From positions 62,001 to 126,000 of the forward strand of contig NZ_JACSWB010000278.1 in the NCBI RefSeq assembly GCF_016888135.1: 64,000 bases of DNA, read 5' to 3'. The notes under the pieces were generated by a model that was not told where the DNA came from, ran no database searches, and was given only the letters and a program-made list of their open reading frames with translations. A program made the position numbers and the translations under genes. Shown here one piece after another: positions 23,070 to 34,142 of the stretch. The DNA is from Leptolyngbya sp. CCY15150. Its GTDB lineage: Bacteria > Cyanobacteriota > Cyanobacteriia > RECH01. Positions within the stretch are counted from its first letter, which is position 1; every line of letters starts with the position of its first letter.

Positions 23070-26000
23070 TCATTCAGGATGCGGCAAAAGCTGTTGAATC
23101 GTTTCTAACAGCAGCTTTAACCGAATTGGTTTGGTTAAGTAATCGTTGGCCCCAGCCGTGAGGCATCGATCGCGATCGCCTGGCATGGCCAAGGCTGTCA
23201 TTGCAAGGATGGGCATGGTGGGGGAGATGGTAGTTCGAATTTGATGAATGGCATCTAGTCCGCTCAGTCCAGGCATTTGAATATCCATGAGGATCAAGTC
23301 TGGTGTTTGGACTTGGGCCATGTTGACGGCCTCATACCCATTATGGGCATAAATGAGATGGTAGCCTTTGAGGGTGAGGTAGTCGGCGATCGTTTCAATA
23401 TTGGCTGGGTTGTCTTCTGCGACCAGAATGACAGGGTCATGATGATGGTTAGGGTAGCTGGGCGTAATGACGGTAGGACTGAGGCGATCGCCCCCGTCTT
23501 GTGTCGGCAAGAGACGACGAATGGCCGCATGGAGATGGACTCGGGTAATGGGTTTGACTAAGTAATCCACTGCTCCTAATGCTAACCCTTGATCTTGCTC
23601 ATCTACCACTGAGGCAATGATGACCGGGATGTGAGCTGTGGCCGGGATATCCTTGAGCTGGGTTAAGATCTCCCAGCCGGACGCCTCTGGCAGCAGGAGG
23701 TCTAGAATAATTAATGACGGCATGAACGTCTTGGCTTGAGCGATCGCATCCTCCCCACATCGGCAAACCGTAGAAGACATTCCTAGCTCGGTTAAATAAC
23801 GCTGGAGCTGATCTGCCACGTCTTGTGAATCTTCAATAATCAGAACCGATCGCATATTCGTTCGTGGCGCGATCGCAAGGGGACTGGCTTCCTTCTCGGT
23901 AGATGGGGCGGGAGGATGGACGTAGGGAATCTGTACTGAGAAGCAGCTCCCTTGTCCTGGGGTGCTATCGACGGTGATATGGCCGCCGTGGAGATCTATT
24001 AAACGTTTGACCAAAGACAGCCCCAGTCCGGTGCCCGTATGTTTTCGATTGAGGGCGCTATCAATTTGGACAAACGGCTGGAAGAGCTTCGTGCGATCGC
24101 TCTCGGCAATGCCGATGCCCGTATCGTTGATCGAGAAAACAACGCTTGGCAGGGTCGATAGGTGGGATGGGCTAGACGGATCGGGAGGTTGTGCAGGAGG
24201 TTGGCTCGTGACGGTAAGGGAAACAACGCCGCCATCAGGGGTAAACTTCACGGCATTCACCAGCAAGTTAATTAAAATTTGCCGCAAACGACGCTCATCG
24301 GCATAGAGGGATGTCACCCCCTGAATGTGATGCTCTAGGTGAATATGTTTCCGCATCGCCTCTTCTTGCACGAAGGCTAAGCTAGCTTGGCAGAGGGTGC
24401 TGATGGATACGAGGCTAGGCTGGAGCTCCAGCTTGCCTGCCTCGATTTTGGATAGGTCAAGAATGTCGTTAATCAGCTCTAGTAAATGCTGTCCACTGCG
24501 CTCAATGGTGGCGATCGCCTTCTGTTGTCGAGGATTCAGCGCTCCGAAAATATCCTCCTGTAGCCCCTCCGACATGCCCAAAATGGCATTGAGGGGGGTG
24601 CGCAGTTCATGGCTCATGCTGGCTAAGAACTCATCCTTGAGCCGGGTGGCCCGCTCTAGCTCTAGGTTGGCGCGGCTGAGCTGGTCGTTCTGAATTTGGA
24701 TGCGCTGCTGGGCTTCTTGCCGTTTGGTAATATCAAAATTAATGCCGACCATGCGCACGGGCTGACCCTGGGCACTACGCTGCACCTGCCCGTAGGCTTT
24801 AATGAAGCGTGGGCTGCCATCGGGCCAGACAATTCGAAAGGTAGCGTCAAACTCTTGCTCTCCTTGGAGCGCTTGCGCTAGAACGAGCTCAGTAGCTTGA
24901 CGATCCTCGGGATGAAGGTTTTGCTGCCAATCTGCGCCGCTTTTGACAGGATCATCGAGCGATCGCCCATGCAGACGATACATTTGCTCATCCCAGACTA
25001 AATGATCCTGCAGCAAGTCCCATTCCCAGATGCCGATCGCGCCCGACTTGAGCGCTAGGGCTAACCGTTCTGACACCTGCCGCAACTGCTGCTCATCGTG
25101 CTTGCGATCGGTAATATCGCGGCCTGCGGATTGATATTCCAAGAGCTGACCTTGGTCGTCAAAAATGGCGCGATCGGTCCACAATTGCCAAGCCGTCGTG
25201 CCATCGGGTAGCAGGACGCGGTGCTCATAGGTCACGGTGGGGCTCTCTGGAGTCAGGCCTAGCACCTTCGTGCGCACAAAATCTAGCTCATCATCAGGGA
25301 TATATTGCCAGATGGCATTGTTATCTGGCAGGGTGGTGTCTAGATTGAAATAGCGACGGTAGGCGGTGTTGGCAAAACTGAGGGAACCATCCGGGCGAAA
25401 GCGGCAAATCATCTCTGTTTGGTCTTCCACGATCGCTCGATAGCGGGTCTCGCTGCGCTGTAGCGCTAGTTCAATGCGTTTGCGATCGGTAATGTCATGC
25501 CCCACCGATTGATACTCGATCACCTGTCCTTGATCGTCAAACATGGCCCGATCCGTCCATAGCTGCCAGCGCTCTTCACCGCTAGCCGTCAAGGTTTTTT
25601 GCTCGGTGGTGATGGTTGGTGTTTCGGGAGTCAGGTGGGACAGCAGTTGCTGGAGGCAAGCATATTCTTCAGGTGGTACCAGTTGCTCAAGAGAGTAACC
25701 AATGCCGATCTCTGGATCAATCTGTACATATTGACAGTAGGCATAGTTTGCAAAGGTGAGCCGACCGTCTGGCAAGAAACGACAAATTAAGTCCGTTTGG
25801 TCTTCCACAACGGCGCGGTAGCGAGCTTCGCTACATTTGCGTTTCATGTCGGCAAGTTTACGATCGGTGATATCGAGGACTGTACCGACGAAGCGGCTGA
25901 GTTGCCCGCTGGCATCAAAGATGGGTTCTCCCCGAGCTGCCACCCAGCCTCGGGATCCATTGGGCCGGTGAAATTCAATTTCTAGGCTATAGGGTATTTG

Positions 26001-27083
26001 CTGGGCGATCGCCTGCTCCAACACGTGGCGGTGATGCAGGCGGGCTTCTGGGCTAAAACGAGCCTCAAGCTGCTCCAGGGTCGGTTCGCCATCGGCTGCC
26101 TCAAAGCCAAAGACCACAAAGCTTTGGGGTGACCAGGTGATTGCTCCGGTCTGAATATCAAACTCCCAACTGCCTAGATTGGCGATGCGCTGGGCGGCAC
26201 TGAGATGGGCCGCTTGCTGCTTCAGGCGCTGCTCAATCTGTTTTTGCTCCGTGATATCAATGACATATCCCACAATTTCAACGGGGATGCCTTGGGGATC
26301 AAACACCATCCGCAAACCGCTACCGAGCCAGAGATAGTGACCGTCGTGGTGTAAAAAACGATACTCGTGCTTTTGAACGCCTTGGGTCGGCAAGAGCGCT
26401 AGGGCACTGAGGAGGCGATCGCGATCGTCAGGATGGAGGCGATCGCTCCAAAGATTGGGCTCTTGGACAAACATCTGGGGCGAATATCCCAGCAGTTCCT
26501 GGATGTTTGCACTGACAAAGGTAGTTTTGTAGTTGTCCCCTGGATGACAGGTGAACATGACCGCAGGACTGGTGGCGATCATGCTTTGGAGGCGAGAGCA
26601 GGGGACTGGAACTCCTAGGAGAATTGGTTGAGGGGTGGGTAGGGAGGCGCTGAGCTGATCCCCAAGCATGTGCAGCATATGGGCCGTATCTAGACAACCG
26701 ATGATCTGCCCTTGATCGATGACTGGAAGGCAGCATCGGCTTGCCTGCTGCATGCGGGGTAGGAGGCTGGGAAGATGGGTCACCTCTGCTAAGGGAATAG
26801 GGCTTGGGGGAGGTGCCATCATCTCGCCGACGAGCGTTTGGGCGGGGATCCGTCCGGCAGCTAAGGCGGCTACTATATCGCGATCGCTCACCAGCCCCAC
26901 CAAGGTGTCTTGCTCCATCACAAGGGCACAGCAACCTGACGATGCGACCGCTGCATGGTGAGATGTCCGAAACCGTTCGATGTCAGCAATCGCTTTATCT
27001 AGGGTTGTTGTGCTAGAAAGCACGGGTAAATTGCGGGCGATCGCTAGATTGATCTGCCCGCTGGAGGAGCTTAAACCGCGCAT
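23070..27083 (-). CDS. large hybrid sensor kinase: CBS pair, five PAS, HisKA/HATPase, two receivers
   Basis: 1,337 residues from the ATG at 27083; a TTG at 27116 would add 11 residues, and neither has a clear RBS. From the N-terminus: two CBS repeats (about 20-155), five PAS domains of which the third and fourth are near-duplicates (YRAVVEDQTDLICRF and YRAIVEDQTEMICRF), a HisKA box MSHELRTPLNAILGM, a HATPase domain, and two receivers (LIILDLLLP and LILMDIQMP). There is no membrane segment, so it senses cytoplasmic signals, possibly adenine nucleotides through CBS and redox or light through PAS cofactors. It heads a two-gene operon. Confidence 0.93.
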   Translation of the reverse strand: MRGLSSSSGQINLAIARNLPVLSSTTTLDKAIADIERFRTSHHAAVASSGCCALVMEQDTLVGLVSDRDIVAALAAGRIPAQTLVGEMMAPPPSPIPLAEVTHLPSLLPRMQQASRCCLPVIDQGQIIGCLDTAHMLHMLGDQLSASLPTPQPILLGVPVPCSRLQSMIATSPAVMFTCHPGDNYKTTFVSANIQELLGYSPQMFVQEPNLWSDRLHPDDRDRLLSALALLPTQGVQKHEYRFLHHDGHYLWLGSGLRMVFDPQGIPVEIVGYVIDITEQKQIEQRLKQQAAHLSAAQRIANLGSWEFDIQTGAITWSPQSFVVFGFEAADGEPTLEQLEARFSPEARLHHRHVLEQAIAQQIPYSLEIEFHRPNGSRGWVAARGEPIFDASGQLSRFVGTVLDITDRKLADMKRKCSEARYRAVVEDQTDLICRFLPDGRLTFANYAYCQYVQIDPEIGIGYSLEQLVPPEEYACLQQLLSHLTPETPTITTEQKTLTASGEERWQLWTDRAMFDDQGQVIEYQSVGHDITDRKRIELALQRSETRYRAIVEDQTEMICRFRPDGSLSFANTAYRRYFNLDTTLPDNNAIWQYIPDDELDFVRTKVLGLTPESPTVTYEHRVLLPDGTTAWQLWTDRAIFDDQGQLLEYQSAGRDITDRKHDEQQLRQVSERLALALKSGAIGIWEWDLLQDHLVWDEQMYRLHGRSLDDPVKSGADWQQNLHPEDRQATELVLAQALQGEQEFDATFRIVWPDGSPRFIKAYGQVQRSAQGQPVRMVGINFDITKRQEAQQRIQIQNDQLSRANLELERATRLKDEFLASMSHELRTPLNAILGMSEGLQEDIFGALNPRQQKAIATIERSGQHLLELINDILDLSKIEAGKLELQPSLVSISTLCQASLAFVQEEAMRKHIHLEHHIQGVTSLYADERRLRQILINLLVNAVKFTPDGGVVSLTVTSQPPAQPPDPSSPSHLSTLPSVVFSINDTGIGIAESDRTKLFQPFVQIDSALNRKHTGTGLGLSLVKRLIDLHGGHITVDSTPGQGSCFSVQIPYVHPPAPSTEKEASPLAIAPRTNMRSVLIIEDSQDVADQLQRYLTELGMSSTVCRCGEDAIAQAKTFMPSLIILDLLLPEASGWEILTQLKDIPATAHIPVIIASVVDEQDQGLALGAVDYLVKPITRVHLHAAIRRLLPTQDGGDRLSPTVITPSYPNHHHDPVILVAEDNPANIETIADYLTLKGYHLIYAHNGYEAVNMAQVQTPDLILMDIQMPGLSGLDAIHQIRTTISPTMPILAMTALAMPGDRDRCLTAGANDYLTKPIRLKLLLETIQQLLPHPE

Positions 27084-27116
27084 GGGAGAAATAAAGTAAT
27101 AGGCTTCAGCACTCAA

Positions 27117-27739
27117 CCATCAACTTAGAAAAAATGGTGAGGATGGTGATGGTTCTTACTGTTATCTTAAATGCTGCAAGAAAGCCTGCCAAAGGTAATT
27201 CTGCGGATTCATGGCCGGGAGCGATTGTGAAGAAATGATTGAGCTGGGGGATGAATGGGGGATGAAGTATGAAGCGCAATTCATCGTTGACCCCATCGCC
27301 CGCGATCGCCCGCGATCGGAGAACAGAGGTTTGACCTTGATGGGTTCGAAGGGGGGGATCGCGACGTCAGGATCCCCTATCCCAAGATTACAACTCTCCA
27401 CATTCCTGTGGAAGTTTTCCACAGGTTTTCCACAGGAAAAGCGAGTTTTCCACAGGAAATGGCATAGTTTTCCACAGGCGCTTGGGAAAAACCTGTGGAA
27501 AACCTGTGGAAAACCAACATGATTATTTAAGTTAAATGACGGGCGTTGTCCTTGAACTAACGTCGAACTAACGTCCCATCTCATCTACAGAGTGTCGTTT
27601 CATATGGAGACCCAGCGATCGCACCCCGGCGATCCATTGTAAGCGATCTGAGGGACTGGATTGCTCCAGTTTCCCTCAAGGCTCGTTCACGTTTCGCTGG
27701 TTGTTGGGGGACTCTACCTAGGGGCGATCGCTATCCTGC
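27117..27739. other. gene-free region holding a DnaA-box cluster
   Basis: About 620 bases between the start of the sensor kinase and the 3' end of guaA, both leftward. The centre (27394-27540) holds the DnaA-box cluster and an AT-rich segment. Near 27300-27320 CGCCCGCGAT is directly repeated around HIP1-like sites. Overlapping open frames on both strands (27162-27584 and 27211-27522) are low-complexity by-products of the repeats and not genes. Confidence 0.8.
27394..27540. promoter_or_regulatory. DnaA-box cluster with adjacent AT-rich segment (candidate oriC or DnaA-binding locus)
   Basis: Six perfect copies of the cyanobacterial DnaA box TTTTCCACA: forward at 27415-27423, 27426-27434, 27446-27454 and 27468-27476; reverse at 27494-27502 and 27505-27513. 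Two weaker copies lie at 27394-27402 and 27407-27415. All six share the longer form GTTTTCCACAGG. Spacings of 11, 20, 22 and 11 bases suggest sites close to helical phase. An AT-rich stretch (27517-27536) follows directly, like a duplex-unwinding element. Known cyanobacterial origins use this box; neither dnaA nor dnaN lies in this window. Confidence 0.8.
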
Positions 27740-29347
27740 CTATTCCCACTCGATGGTGCCTGGGGGCTTGGACGTAATATCGTACACAACGCGATTGACG
27801 CCCTTCACTTCGTTGACAATCCTCGTGGAAATGGCTTCTAGCAAATCGTAGGGCGCACGCGACCAATCAGCCGTCATGCCATCTTCACTAGAAACGCAGC
27901 GCAGCACGATTGGGTAAGCGTAGGTGCGTTGATCGCCCATCACTCCCACGCTGCGAATGGGCAGCAGCACAGCGAAGGCTTGCCAGAAGTCGTTATACAG
28001 ACCGCGTTGGTTGATCTCCTGCCGCACGATGAAATCCGCATCGCGCAGGATGCTCAGCTTTTCTGCCGTCACTTCGCCCAGAATGCGAATGGCTAGACCC
28101 GGGCCTGGGAAGGGATGGCGTTTGACAATCTCTTCGGGAAGACCGATGGACAGCCCGACTTTGCGCACTTCGTCTTTAAACAATTTGCGCAGGGGCTCGA
28201 CGAGCTTGAAGCGCAGATCCTTGGGTAGCCCACCCACGTTGTGGTGGCTCTTGATCTTCACCGCCACCCGCTCTCCAGTTTTGGGATCAACGTTGGTGTC
28301 GGCTGACTCGATCACATCAGGGTAGAGGGTGCCCTGGGCTAGGTAGTCGAAGGGGCCAAGACGCTTGGATTCTTCTTCAAAAACCTGAATGAACTCGTGG
28401 CCAATGCGCTTACGTTTTTCCTCGGGATCGCTGATGCCTTCAATGACTGCCAAGAAGCGATCGCGGGCCTGAACGTGTACCACGGGAATGTGGAACTGTT
28501 CGTGGAACAATTTCACCAGGCGCTCTGGCTCATACTTGCGCATGAAGCCTTGGTCGATAAACATGCAGGTGAGCTGATCCCCGATGGCCTGGTGCAGCAA
28601 AAAGGCTAGAGTTGAGGAGTCAACGCCGCCGGATAGCGCCAGCAGCACCCGCTTCTCGCCAATGCGGGCCCGGATTTCACGAATAGCATCTTCTACAAAC
28701 GCTTCGGTTGTCCAAGTTGGTTCGCAACAACAGACGTGATAAACAAAGTTGCGAATCAGCGCCAGACCGCCGATGGAATGCACCACTTCGGGATGGAACT
28801 GGACGCCGTAGAGCTTGCGCTCATGGTGGGCGATCGCGGCGCAGGGAGTATTGTCGGTGTGGGCGAGCAGCTCAAAGCCATCGGGCAACGCCTTGACGGA
28901 GTCTCCATGACTCATCCACATGGTGGTGCCGTCGTCTACGTTGGTGAGGAGATCGGTGGGATCATCGATGTAGAGCGATGCCTTGCCATATTCACCGCGC
29001 AGGGCCCGCTCAACGCTGCCACCCAACTGTTCTACCATCAACTGCATACCGTAGCACACCCCTAGAACAGGGATGCCCAGATCCCAAATTTTGGGATCGC
29101 AGTGGGGAGCGTTGTCGTCATAGACGGAGCTTGGACCACCCGATAGAATAATGCCCTTGGGATTGAGTTGCTGGAGTTGCTCAACCGTGGTGCGGTAGGA
29201 AAGCACTTCAGAATAGACTTGGGTTTCGCGAATTCGTCGAGCAATGAGTTCAGAATATTGCGAGCCAAAGTCGAGGATCACAATCATCTGACGGGTGATG
29301 TGCTCAGTGGTGTAAGCGTCGGGTGGAAGTTGGGTTTGGAGAGTCAC
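27740..29347 (-). CDS. guaA: GMP synthase (glutamine-hydrolysing)
   Basis: 535 residues from a GTG start. The glutamine amidotransferase half has the nucleophile in GVCYGMQLM and FHPEV. The ATP-pyrophosphatase half has the P-loop [11 protein letters not shown], and the dimerisation part ends in the diagnostic KPPGTIEWE. It converts XMP to GMP. The reading frame is complete. The 285 bases upstream contain TATATA-like sequence near 29522-29530 that may be its promoter. Confidence 0.98.
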
Positions 29348-29632: not shown

Positions 29633-32600
29633 CTAGGGGTTGGTCTGGACATCAAATAATGAGGAGCTATCCTGTTGATCCACGTTGCGACATAGGGCGC
29701 GATCGCCATCGAGCTGTCGAAGATAATCCTGAACCCATGCACAGGCATAGTCGATCTCTGTGATCTCAAGGATTTCGGTCAGATCCCAAATCATCAGCCT
29801 GCCGTCATGCCCGCCGGAAATGAGGCGATCGTCCATGCCGCCAAACCCTAGGGCGACTATGCTGCCGCGATGACCGCTGAGGATGGCGCTGATGGCGGTA
29901 TTACGGGCATTATGGTCTAAATTCCAGACCTGAATCATACCGTCTTCCCGACTAGCGGCTAGACGGTTGCCGCTGGGGCTAAAGCTGATGCGATGGATGG
30001 GGCTGGAATAGTTGGTGATCGAACCGGTTGGGGTTAGCTTGCTGTCCGAGTCGATCTGCCAAAGCTTCACCGATCCATCAATGCTGGCGGTAGCTATTGT
30101 CTGCCCTTGAGGACTGAAAGCAGCGTCGGCGATCGCTTGGTCATGCGCCGGTAGGGTCTGCAGACGTTTGCCTTCCAAATCCCAAAGAAAGAGGTTTTGA
30201 CCACCGCCGACCATAATCCAATCTCTGGTGGGATGGGCGTCGAGACCTAGCAATCGTTGGTCTTCCTCGGTAGACAGCACCTGCAGCATCTGTCCGCTGA
30301 GATCCCAAATCCGCACGGTGCCATCTGCTCCGCTAGAAATGAGGCGATCGCCCCTAGCGTTGAATATGAGATCATGAATGGCTCCCTCGTGGCCGTCTAA
30401 ACGTTGTGCCAACGTTATGTCTAGGGTATCCACCGCCCCTGCATCGGTGAGTTGGGTCATGTCATCAGCGATCGCCCATAGAAGGATGCGTCCCTCATGG
30501 TCTCCTGAGGCGAGATAGCTGCCATTGGGGCTAAAGGCAACGGCTTCCACAGTATCGTTGTGCTCGGTGAGTTCTTGAAGCTGTTGGCCGGTCTGCCGCC
30601 ATAGACGTACCCGTTGATCGCCGCTGGCGGTGGCAATGATGCCGCTGGCTGTATGGACGGCATGGTCATTGATTTCCCAATTAGGATGGGCGTTAATGAT
30701 GCGGCGGCGGGTATTTTGTTGCCAGAGTCGCAGGGTGCGATCGGCGCTGACGGAGGCGATCGCACCGGTGGGATGTACGGCTAGATCTAAGACCTGATGC
30801 TCATGACCCAAAAATGTTTCCTTGAGGACGCCATCTGTAGACCAGAGATGAATGCGTCGGTCGCGTCCAGCGGAGACGAGGGTGTCGCGATCGGCAAAGG
30901 CGAGGGCTTCGATTCTGCTGACATGGGCTGATGAGATTGTCCCGACCTGAACACCGGCTGCATCCCAGAGGGTGACGGTGCCATTTTGAGCGCCCGCTGC
31001 AATCAGGTCGCCGTCGGGATGGATGGCGATCGCTGAAATGGATCCGGTATCCGTCGTCATTTGCCGTAGCAGGTCTCCCGTTAGTGACCATTGGTCTATC
31101 CCGCGGTCATGGCTGGTGAGGATGGTTTGGCCATCGGGCATCATGGCGACTTGGGTCACGGAGCCATCTGGCAGGGGCGTGGTTTGCTGGACTTGGCCAT
31201 CGAGTGTCCAGCGCTTCATGGTCTGATCTTGTCCTACCGAGAGCAGATGTGCCCCATCGGGACTGTAGACCATACTGACCACGCCTCCAGGGTGGGCTTC
31301 GGGGATGGTGGAGGTGAGAGTACCGTCTAGCGACCACTGTTTGAGGGTGCCATCCTCACTGGCGGTCAGTACAGATTGGCTGGTGGGATGAAATAGAACT
31401 TGGGTGATGGGGCGATCGCTCCTATGGCCAAAGCTTGCCTTGAGGTCGCCCTGAACCGTCCAGATCGTTCCGGTGCCATTTTCGTAGGATACCGCCATCC
31501 ATTGCCCATCGGGACTGAAGGCGACGCTGGTTGGGATGTCGGCAGTGCTAATTCGGTTAAATTCCTGAATACTGTAGACAACTTGCCGCAGGGCAAGATC
31601 GACTTGGTTGCGTGCTGCTACGGTGTCGGCTTGCTGAGTTAGCCAGTAATCGCTGCGTTGCCTTGCTTGCAAAACCTCGACGAGGGCATCGAGATGATTA
31701 TTATCGTTGGATAAGATACGGCTATAGAGACTCGTGATCTTCACCGTTTGGATGGATGACCGACGATATTCTGACAGAGCAACGCCCACAGCTCCCAGCA
31801 GCGCAAACAGACCGAGGGTGACCACCTGCAGCAGCAGGCGCTGGCGTTTAAATGATTGTTGTTCAGCCGCTAGCCGTCCTTCCGCTTCTTGAGCTCGTTC
31901 TTCCTGGAGTTTCAGCAGAATAGCCTGCTTACGGCTTTCCTCGGCGGTGATGGTGTCGGCAAGCTGCTGGCTGGCATTAATAAACTGTCGCTGCAGCTTG
32001 GTAACAGGGGGATTTTTCTGGGTATCGTCCGCCTCTCTGAGCCAGGTATTAGCGATCGCCAACTCACTGCCCCGCAACAGCAGATCGGGGTTTTTCTGTT
32101 TATCTCCCCAAGCGATCGCCCTCTGAAGCCAGTGGGTATGGCTATGGACATGGTCGCGATCGACCTCTAGCATCCGCACCAGTTCACTAAAGTTGATGGT
32201 GAAGCTACCGCCATCGTCACTAAAATCGATGGGGGGAATTCCCTTCAGGATGTCTGGCAGTTCGTCGCTGAGTCCGTAGGGTAAGACGGGAATAATTCGC
32301 TTGTTGATTTGGAGAGCGTGATGTACTTCTGACTCATGATTGGGAAGATCAAGGGTATAGGGCGCAATGATGACCAGGACGTTATCACAGGTTTCTAGCC
32401 CATGCAGCACCTCGGCATCCGCGCCAAGACGGGATTCTACATTATCTTGATCAAACCAGGTGGTCTTTCCTTGAAGCTGTAGTGCTTCATTGAGCCGCCG
32501 CGCAAAATCTGCTTCCTCCATGGGATAGGAAATAAAGACGTCCAGCGATTCTTCAGGCGGATGACTGAGACTGGCGTTGATGTAGTCCTGTTGTAGAGAG

Positions 32601-33931
32601 GTGGGGGGATGGTCGGGATTTTGCTGGGTGCTCTTGAGCCATGCCTCGGCTTGTTCTAGACGATAGCCTCGTAATAAGATGCTGGTATTTCGGTTCTGAT
32701 CGCGCCATTTGAGGGCGCGGGTGAGCAAGATTTTATGAAGTTCGTAATACTGGGCGTTATCCTGAAGGGTAGCAATTAGTTTATCTAAACTGGCGTGATA
32801 ATGAATCGGATCATCCGCTTGGCTAAAGTCAATAAACTGCAGCGATCGCAACTGCAGCGGTAGGGCATGAACGGGGGCATCCTCTTCTAGCTTGGTGTAA
32901 ATTGCATCTAGACCGCGTCGGTTGCGCCGAGAGGATGATGTTAATGCGTCGATCGCTTCCATCTGTAGGGGAATGATCCGTTTGTGATGGCTGAAGGCAT
33001 GGGCTAACTGATGCTGACAGTCGTCGCTGCTGAGGGATGCCTGGGAGAGCAGATAGACAACGGCGTCGGCTCCTTCAATGCCGCGATCGCTCACCGCCTG
33101 CGTATCTTCTCCGGTGCGAATGTCGGTGGTGTCTGTCCAAACCGTAAAGCCCTTGCGCATCAGGCTTCGCCGAATGTTCTCCATACGGGGGCGATCGCTG
33201 TCGGCGTAGCATAGAAATACCTGCGCCATCAAGTTATTGGCGTTTTTGATGCTCTCGCAGATAAATTCACAGTGGAGATCGGTGGGTTCGCAGGGGGCTT
33301 GCTCGGTGGTGAACTGAACGCGTAGCCAGTCTTCTCCTAGGAGGCGATCGCGCCCGGTGAGTAAGTAACGTGATTGCTGTTGATTGCGAGACCAAGTGAG
33401 AGCTTGGTTTAGGAAAACCGTATGGCGATGGACATAGTCGCGATGACGATGCATAACCTCCAACAGCCCGGCAAAGGAGGTGTCAAAATCATCCATGCCC
33501 TCTCGGAAATAAACCCAATTAATTTTGCCAATCACGGGATGCATGTTGGGAAAGCTGGAGTGCAATCCTTGGGCTTGGTAGTCTTGCCATTGGGCGATCG
33601 TCTGGCTGGGGTAGCGCTGCTGCCACGTTTCGTAGGAAATTTGCTCAACGTGTAAGAGCGGAATAATCCGTTTCTGGCAGTTCAGGGCTAACTCAATTTC
33701 CTTACCGCAGTAGGGAGAGTTAACCGCGTGGGGAGCGATAATAAATAAGAAGTTATGAGACTGCTCAATGCCAACGTCAATTTGATTTTGAAAATCAACT
33801 CCCAGGGGAATATTGTTTTGGTCGAACCAAATATCAAGGTCATGGTTCACCAAGTGGGCGTGGAGTTTTTTGGCAAACACGAGGCTGTCGGCACGGCCGT
33901 AGGAGATAAACGCATCCTGGAAGTCGGGCAT
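29633..33931 (-). CDS. triple-TIR / transmembrane / 14 WD40-repeat protein
   Basis: 1,432 residues from the ATG at 33931, where the first TIR domain begins (MPDFQDAFISYGRAD); an upstream start would add 53 non-conserved residues. Three TIR domains lie at about 4-145, 234-375 and 462-575, each followed by a similar helical module (about 150-230, 380-455, 585-655). A charged coiled coil (660-698) leads to one membrane segment (about 700-720), then 14 WD40 repeats (about 798-1385), enough for two seven-bladed propellers. Position-matched catalytic Glu is E78 in TIR1 and E535 in TIR3, but Q308 in TIR2. Bacterial TIRs often cleave NAD+ in immunity; here that is an inference. Confidence 0.92.
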   Translation of the reverse strand: MPDFQDAFISYGRADSLVFAKKLHAHLVNHDLDIWFDQNNIPLGVDFQNQIDVGIEQSHNFLFIIAPHAVNSPYCGKEIELALNCQKRIIPLLHVEQISYETWQQRYPSQTIAQWQDYQAQGLHSSFPNMHPVIGKINWVYFREGMDDFDTSFAGLLEVMHRHRDYVHRHTVFLNQALTWSRNQQQSRYLLTGRDRLLGEDWLRVQFTTEQAPCEPTDLHCEFICESIKNANNLMAQVFLCYADSDRPRMENIRRSLMRKGFTVWTDTTDIRTGEDTQAVSDRGIEGADAVVYLLSQASLSSDDCQHQLAHAFSHHKRIIPLQMEAIDALTSSSRRNRRGLDAIYTKLEEDAPVHALPLQLRSLQFIDFSQADDPIHYHASLDKLIATLQDNAQYYELHKILLTRALKWRDQNRNTSILLRGYRLEQAEAWLKSTQQNPDHPPTSLQQDYINASLSHPPEESLDVFISYPMEEADFARRLNEALQLQGKTTWFDQDNVESRLGADAEVLHGLETCDNVLVIIAPYTLDLPNHESEVHHALQINKRIIPVLPYGLSDELPDILKGIPPIDFSDDGGSFTINFSELVRMLEVDRDHVHSHTHWLQRAIAWGDKQKNPDLLLRGSELAIANTWLREADDTQKNPPVTKLQRQFINASQQLADTITAEESRKQAILLKLQEERAQEAEGRLAAEQQSFKRQRLLLQVVTLGLFALLGAVGVALSEYRRSSIQTVKITSLYSRILSNDNNHLDALVEVLQARQRSDYWLTQQADTVAARNQVDLALRQVVYSIQEFNRISTADIPTSVAFSPDGQWMAVSYENGTGTIWTVQGDLKASFGHRSDRPITQVLFHPTSQSVLTASEDGTLKQWSLDGTLTSTIPEAHPGGVVSMVYSPDGAHLLSVGQDQTMKRWTLDGQVQQTTPLPDGSVTQVAMMPDGQTILTSHDRGIDQWSLTGDLLRQMTTDTGSISAIAIHPDGDLIAAGAQNGTVTLWDAAGVQVGTISSAHVSRIEALAFADRDTLVSAGRDRRIHLWSTDGVLKETFLGHEHQVLDLAVHPTGAIASVSADRTLRLWQQNTRRRIINAHPNWEINDHAVHTASGIIATASGDQRVRLWRQTGQQLQELTEHNDTVEAVAFSPNGSYLASGDHEGRILLWAIADDMTQLTDAGAVDTLDITLAQRLDGHEGAIHDLIFNARGDRLISSGADGTVRIWDLSGQMLQVLSTEEDQRLLGLDAHPTRDWIMVGGGQNLFLWDLEGKRLQTLPAHDQAIADAAFSPQGQTIATASIDGSVKLWQIDSDSKLTPTGSITNYSSPIHRISFSPSGNRLAASREDGMIQVWNLDHNARNTAISAILSGHRGSIVALGFGGMDDRLISGGHDGRLMIWDLTEILEITEIDYACAWVQDYLRQLDGDRALCRNVDQQDSSSLFDVQTNP

Positions 33932-34142
33932 GGACGATTTAAGGAGAGGGTAAAAACAACAAAGGACTGCTTCAATCCTACCGATAGATCTCCCGTTCTT
34001 TCTCCCTAGTTTGCCGATTGTTGTGAATACATGATGACCCTGGTGGGTTTCACCCAAGGCCAGGATGACCTCATGTATCAACCCAAACATCTCATCCCGT
34101 ATGGGGTGACTGGGTTGAAGGTGCCTTAGTTAATATCGCCAG

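Follow-up and report, generated by a model that had tools for sequence, protein, structure and literature searches.

The DnaA-box array beside guaA is probably a dedicated DnaA-binding site outside the origin, which would titrate DnaA and/or modulate its state; we infer both the binding and this output from sequence comparison. The window, that is the whole 64-kb stretch analysed here, corresponds to C278:62001-126000 of a 5.75-Mb draft genome in 304 contigs. A scan of its full length finds six exact copies of the box TTTTCCACA within 99 bp (27415-27513) and no further exact copy in the remaining window. Dinucleotide shuffles of the 64-kb window contain on average 0.39 copies by chance, with a maximum of two. 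The spacings are 11, 20 and 22 bp, with 11 bp in the reverse-strand pair, and direct reading of the letters shows that the extended form GTTTTCCACAGG is common to all six boxes. The core of the array consists of three head-to-tail boxes at 20-22 bp, equal to two helical turns, and all three face guaA. The A+T content of the adjacent segment is exceptional compared to the 45% of the window, as only 0.23% of the window's 27-mers reach the same value of 74%. In all these countable details, including the strands, the two weaker copies and the adjacent A+T-rich segment, the sequence-only reading of this DNA was accurate. The open reading frames 27162-27584 and 27211-27522, both overlapping the array, were not accepted as genes.

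Table 1. Coordinates of the array, its neighbours and related loci (window positions unless a contig or locus is given)
Feature	Position	Strand	Remark
DnaA-box array, whole constrained element	27410..27522	.	congener identity 98.2%
DnaA box 1, exact TTTTCCACA	27415..27423	+	window scan
DnaA box 2, exact	27426..27434	+	opens conserved 20/22-bp triplet; window and phylum scans
DnaA box 3, exact	27446..27454	+	middle of triplet; window and phylum scans
DnaA box 4, exact	27468..27476	+	closes triplet; window and phylum scans
DnaA box 5, exact	27494..27502	-	opposed to boxes 1-4; kept in both congeners; window scan, alignment
DnaA box 6, exact	27505..27513	-	kept in both congeners; window scan, alignment
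Weak box CTCTCCACA	27394..27402	+	2 mismatches
Weak box TGTGGAAGT	27407..27415	-	2 mismatches
A+T-rich segment	27514..27540	.	74% A+T; mostly outside best-conserved block
guaA (GMP synthase)	27740..29347	-	3' end faces array
Multi-PAS hybrid histidine kinase gene	23070..27116	-	start 299 bp from array
Array near guaA	27415-27513		6 boxes in 99 bp
dnaN-proximal oriC cluster	C145:27677-28229		6 boxes in 553 bp
Third cluster (array B)	C292:44513-44564		3 boxes in 52 bp
Array B with DUF2811 region	L061:9513-10181 = C292:44513-45181		further loci L269-L358
Clear guaA-array-CDF examples	G400 (L380), Trichocoleus (L071)

In the entire genome TTTTCCACA occurs 76 times, compared to 35 occurrences of the reversed control. 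The sequence-only reading had proposed such a genome-wide count, and it yields clusters of at least three close boxes at three places only (Table 1). TTTTCCACAGG is present in 14 copies in 5.75 Mb, and six of them belong to the guaA-side array.

Six boxes adjoining an A+T-rich segment resemble an origin, and the sequence-only reading had named the chromosome origin as one of its explanations. The location of the replication genes and the GC skew argue against it. The gene dnaN is found at C145:28396 with six exact boxes immediately upstream, and there the skew changes from consistently negative to consistently positive. Around the guaA-side array, the skew does not change sign and remains positive over some 100 kb or more in both directions (computed on the 320 kb of C278, the 40 kb of C145 and two 20-kb pieces). 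Of the paired observations that had been named as speaking against an origin, a skew minimum elsewhere together with a lack of DnaA binding here, the first half is thus what we find. The absence of dnaA and dnaN from the neighbourhood, as had been remarked, is borne out, with dnaN on C145 and dnaA at C172:48659. The encoded DnaA looks intact and contains N-terminal, ATPase and C-terminal DNA-binding domains.

Cyanobacterial oriC beside dnaN with the same box TTTTCCACA is a documented arrangement in Cyanothece, Anabaena and S. elongatus (PMC4674748), and the boxes at guaA are identical to those at oriC of the same genome. Beyond the shared box, the two loci differ. The array has a box cluster as oriC does, but neither a dnaN or dnaA neighbour nor a skew switch, and its core is a 20-22-bp ladder, whereas box pairs at 9, 11 and 12 bp are common at dnaN. 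The A+T-rich segment lies only partly within the conserved block. Relatives with closed genomes have the array at guaA (array A) 0.57-2.9 Mb away from their dnaN or dnaA origin. On the dnaN-side boxes and the skew we reject the origin hypothesis and conclude that the guaA-side array is not oriC and that the oriC of this genome is at dnaN on C145; the array is very unlikely to serve as the chromosome origin or as a further active one. The other half of the sequence-only proposal, a DnaA-titration or regulatory locus, fares better in view of the constraint among congeners and the recurrence of a phased array at guaA in many families.

Origin-like clusters were also encountered in other arrangements. 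In family f19 (L243-L246), a cluster of five to six boxes on both strands lies away from dnaN, with a hisD-like gene nearby in three of the four loci; these clusters look like oriC separated from dnaN. In one closed genome (G030, L237, position about 1.7 kb), an oriC-like cluster adjoins dnaA, and dnaN is about 1.6 Mb away.

For the window genome and two congeners (G002 and G003), which carry the array on the same side of guaA, the block 27410-27522 is 98.2% identical in each of the three pairs with gaps counted. Identity is 65-77% in the 115-bp flank on the guaA side (27523-27637) and 26-65% in the opposite 115-bp flank (27295-27409). The 54 box positions are invariant among the three congeners, and of the 45 non-box positions within the array two differ. 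From this alignment we conclude that the guaA-side array is under strong constraint. Since the entire 113-bp block is conserved among congeners, non-box bases included, it could in principle be a small RNA, a terminator or a mobile repeat that merely holds the motif. Between families, however, conservation is for the most part confined to the boxes and their spacing of 20-22 bp, while the spacers are largely free. The array block has no match to an Rfam RNA, and no terminator-like site was found in it. A conserved feature unrelated to DnaA is therefore a most unlikely explanation. Upstream of guaA, the window encodes a 1485-residue protein that combines three TIR domains with WD40 repeats (29633-34090, minus strand), a relative of which is found beside guaA in both congeners.

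The association with guaA extends well beyond the genus. We compared 80 guaA loci from named cyanobacteria that were not selected by box spacing and in which Nostocales dominate. Within 900 bp downstream of guaA there are 43 exact boxes in 15 loci, versus five boxes in four loci upstream; phased box pairs occur downstream in 13 of the 80 loci and upstream in one. Most of these arrays again show the 20-22-bp spacing, although spacing played no part in picking the loci. Array-bearing loci include Leptolyngbyaceae, Trichocoleus, Oscillatoriaceae, Kastovskya, Kaiparowitsia, Elainella and Phormidium, with lineage counts based on numbered families. A phylum scan detects three tandem boxes in 38 of 386 genomes and one match for the reversed control, but it admitted spacings of 17-23 bp only and is thus no proof of phasing on its own. 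The core boxes point towards guaA throughout the 31 array loci compared, except where guaA is absent and they follow the strand of the gene for the CDF transporter. When both genes flank the array, they are always convergent and the array is placed between two 3' ends. The neighbour on the far side is this CDF gene in many other lineages, and in the window's genus the multi-PAS histidine kinase gene takes its place; the opposed box is restricted to this genus and a few others.

This layout bears on the alternative that DnaA serves as a transcription factor at this locus, as it does in other bacteria (PMC7198777), and that the array couples expression of a neighbour, the histidine kinase gene starting at 27116, to replication. 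In the window's genus the array lies 299 bp upstream of this gene, and the region 27150-27294 adjoining it is 83-91% identical among congeners. An array upstream of the DUF2811 gene, described below, has the orientation of that gene. Against such a role, place and orientation of array A are constant relative to guaA, while the opposite neighbour varies between CDF transporter, kinase and others. In the CDF-containing lineages, the two neighbouring genes have their 3' ends at the array, so that no promoter is available there for regulation. We consider transcriptional control of the neighbour by array A rather unlikely.

Given that an array between two gene ends cannot be a promoter, the simplest role would be to sequester DnaA away from oriC or else to modify its nucleotide state. 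As in titration clusters, several strong boxes lie outside oriC and under selection. We propose that DnaA docks on the head-to-tail boxes as it does at oriC and forms a stable complex, in which the distance of 20-22 bp would place the DnaA monomers on the same side of the helix. The complex may withdraw DnaA from oriC and/or alter its nucleotide state. Because the array is duplicated by a passing fork, it would couple initiation to the copy number of the chromosome. The distance of array A from the origin ranges from 0.10 to 0.43 of the genome in closed genomes, and from 0.01 to 0.47 for all arrays (genome length rounded for G400), which argues against strict timing by position and also counts against the proposed role.

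Control of DnaA by box-containing loci outside oriC is established in E. coli (PMC4585315, PMC10380432), where titration of DnaA has been argued from experiments (PMC12371093). The locus datA, which mediates DDAH, reduces the amount of active DnaA and requires an IHF site between its boxes 2 and 3 (PMC4585315). Like our array, it is a cluster of DnaA boxes in non-coding DNA away from oriC. Compared to datA, the boxes of the array are perfect and set in a regular 20-22-bp ladder. DARS1 and DARS2 contain three DnaA boxes in non-coding DNA outside oriC, as does the array, but DARS requires boxes I and II in head-to-head orientation (PMC10380432), and nearly all lineages have the core of the array arranged head-to-tail. 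The window itself contains a single opposed pair (27468/27494). Biochemically, datA stimulates ATP hydrolysis on DnaA, and DARS promotes the release of its ADP. Both datA and DARS keep a conserved distance from oriC, which we did not find for the cyanobacterial array in closed genomes. The best reading is that the array would be functionally similar to datA and DARS without being assigned to either class, in the case of DARS because most copies lack a head-to-head pair. DnaA-box clusters in Bacillus subtilis and Streptomyces have a titration role. They resemble the array by description, as strong intergenic boxes away from oriC, and intergenic DnaA sites of B. subtilis are cited in PMC7198777. 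The guaA/CDF context and the strict phasing are features of the array, described from cyanobacteria. For cyanobacterial arrays of this type we found no description in the open-access literature. Nothing specific was found on DnaA titration in cyanobacteria either: the papers found treat oriC binding and light dependence, and those searched do not mention titration.

Most of the 80 loci, mainly from Nostocales, have no array at guaA, a point against the proposed role, and none of the Nostocales guaA loci sampled (among L067-L142) shows a phased array there. DnaA is dispensable in Nostoc 7120 (PMC7198777), and the absence of array A at guaA in the sampled Nostocales may bear on such dispensability. 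Phased arrays at other places (L203, L213, L217-L219, L227, L230, L234, L247, L254, L255), several of them in genomes without an array A seen at guaA, are possibly relocated copies.

The third cluster of the genome is a triplet with spacings of 22 and 21 bp upstream of the gene for a 74-residue DUF2811 protein; we refer to it as array B. Of 135 genomes of the class, 134 contain DUF2811; the only one of 14 control genomes to have it is Synechococcus elongatus. We fetched 90 DUF2811 loci irrespective of boxes. An exact box is found within 900 bp upstream of the gene in 80 of the 90 loci (182 boxes in 80.1 kb) and downstream in two (four boxes in 53.9 kb). The boxes share the orientation of the gene in 167 of 181 cases within 750 bp. 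Among neighbouring same-strand pairs no more than 60 bp apart, 54 of 68 are spaced by 20-22 bp, and the box distances peak at 11, 21-22, 32-33, 43 and 54 bp, which is a helical ladder. Located a few hundred bp upstream of DUF2811, array B appears better placed than array A to serve as a DnaA-responsive control region.

An impression that DUF2811 might be ribbon-helix-helix-like was dropped, as fold and profile comparison lent it no support; neither method gives a credible match, and the AlphaFold model is weak (mean pLDDT 71, pTM 0.52). Open-access papers contain no mention of DUF2811 that we could find. We put forward only tentatively that the two phased non-oriC arrays, A at guaA or relocated and B upstream of DUF2811, constitute a cyanobacterial replication-control system, with DUF2811 as a possible DnaA-controlled replication regulator and a circuit of array A and DUF2811 in place of control of the datA/DARS type. 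Arrays A and B are two concrete, testable candidate sites for DnaA regulation in polyploid cyanobacteria. Array A is short, conserved and deletable, and array B is upstream of a near-universal gene.

For 70 arrays that were not picked via guaA, 19 belong to the guaA/CDF class, which also counts loci that retain no more than the CDF gene or its neighbour, 29 to DUF2811 and four to dnaN or dnaA, and 18 are found elsewhere. The array spacers show a weak TTT in an 11-bp register.
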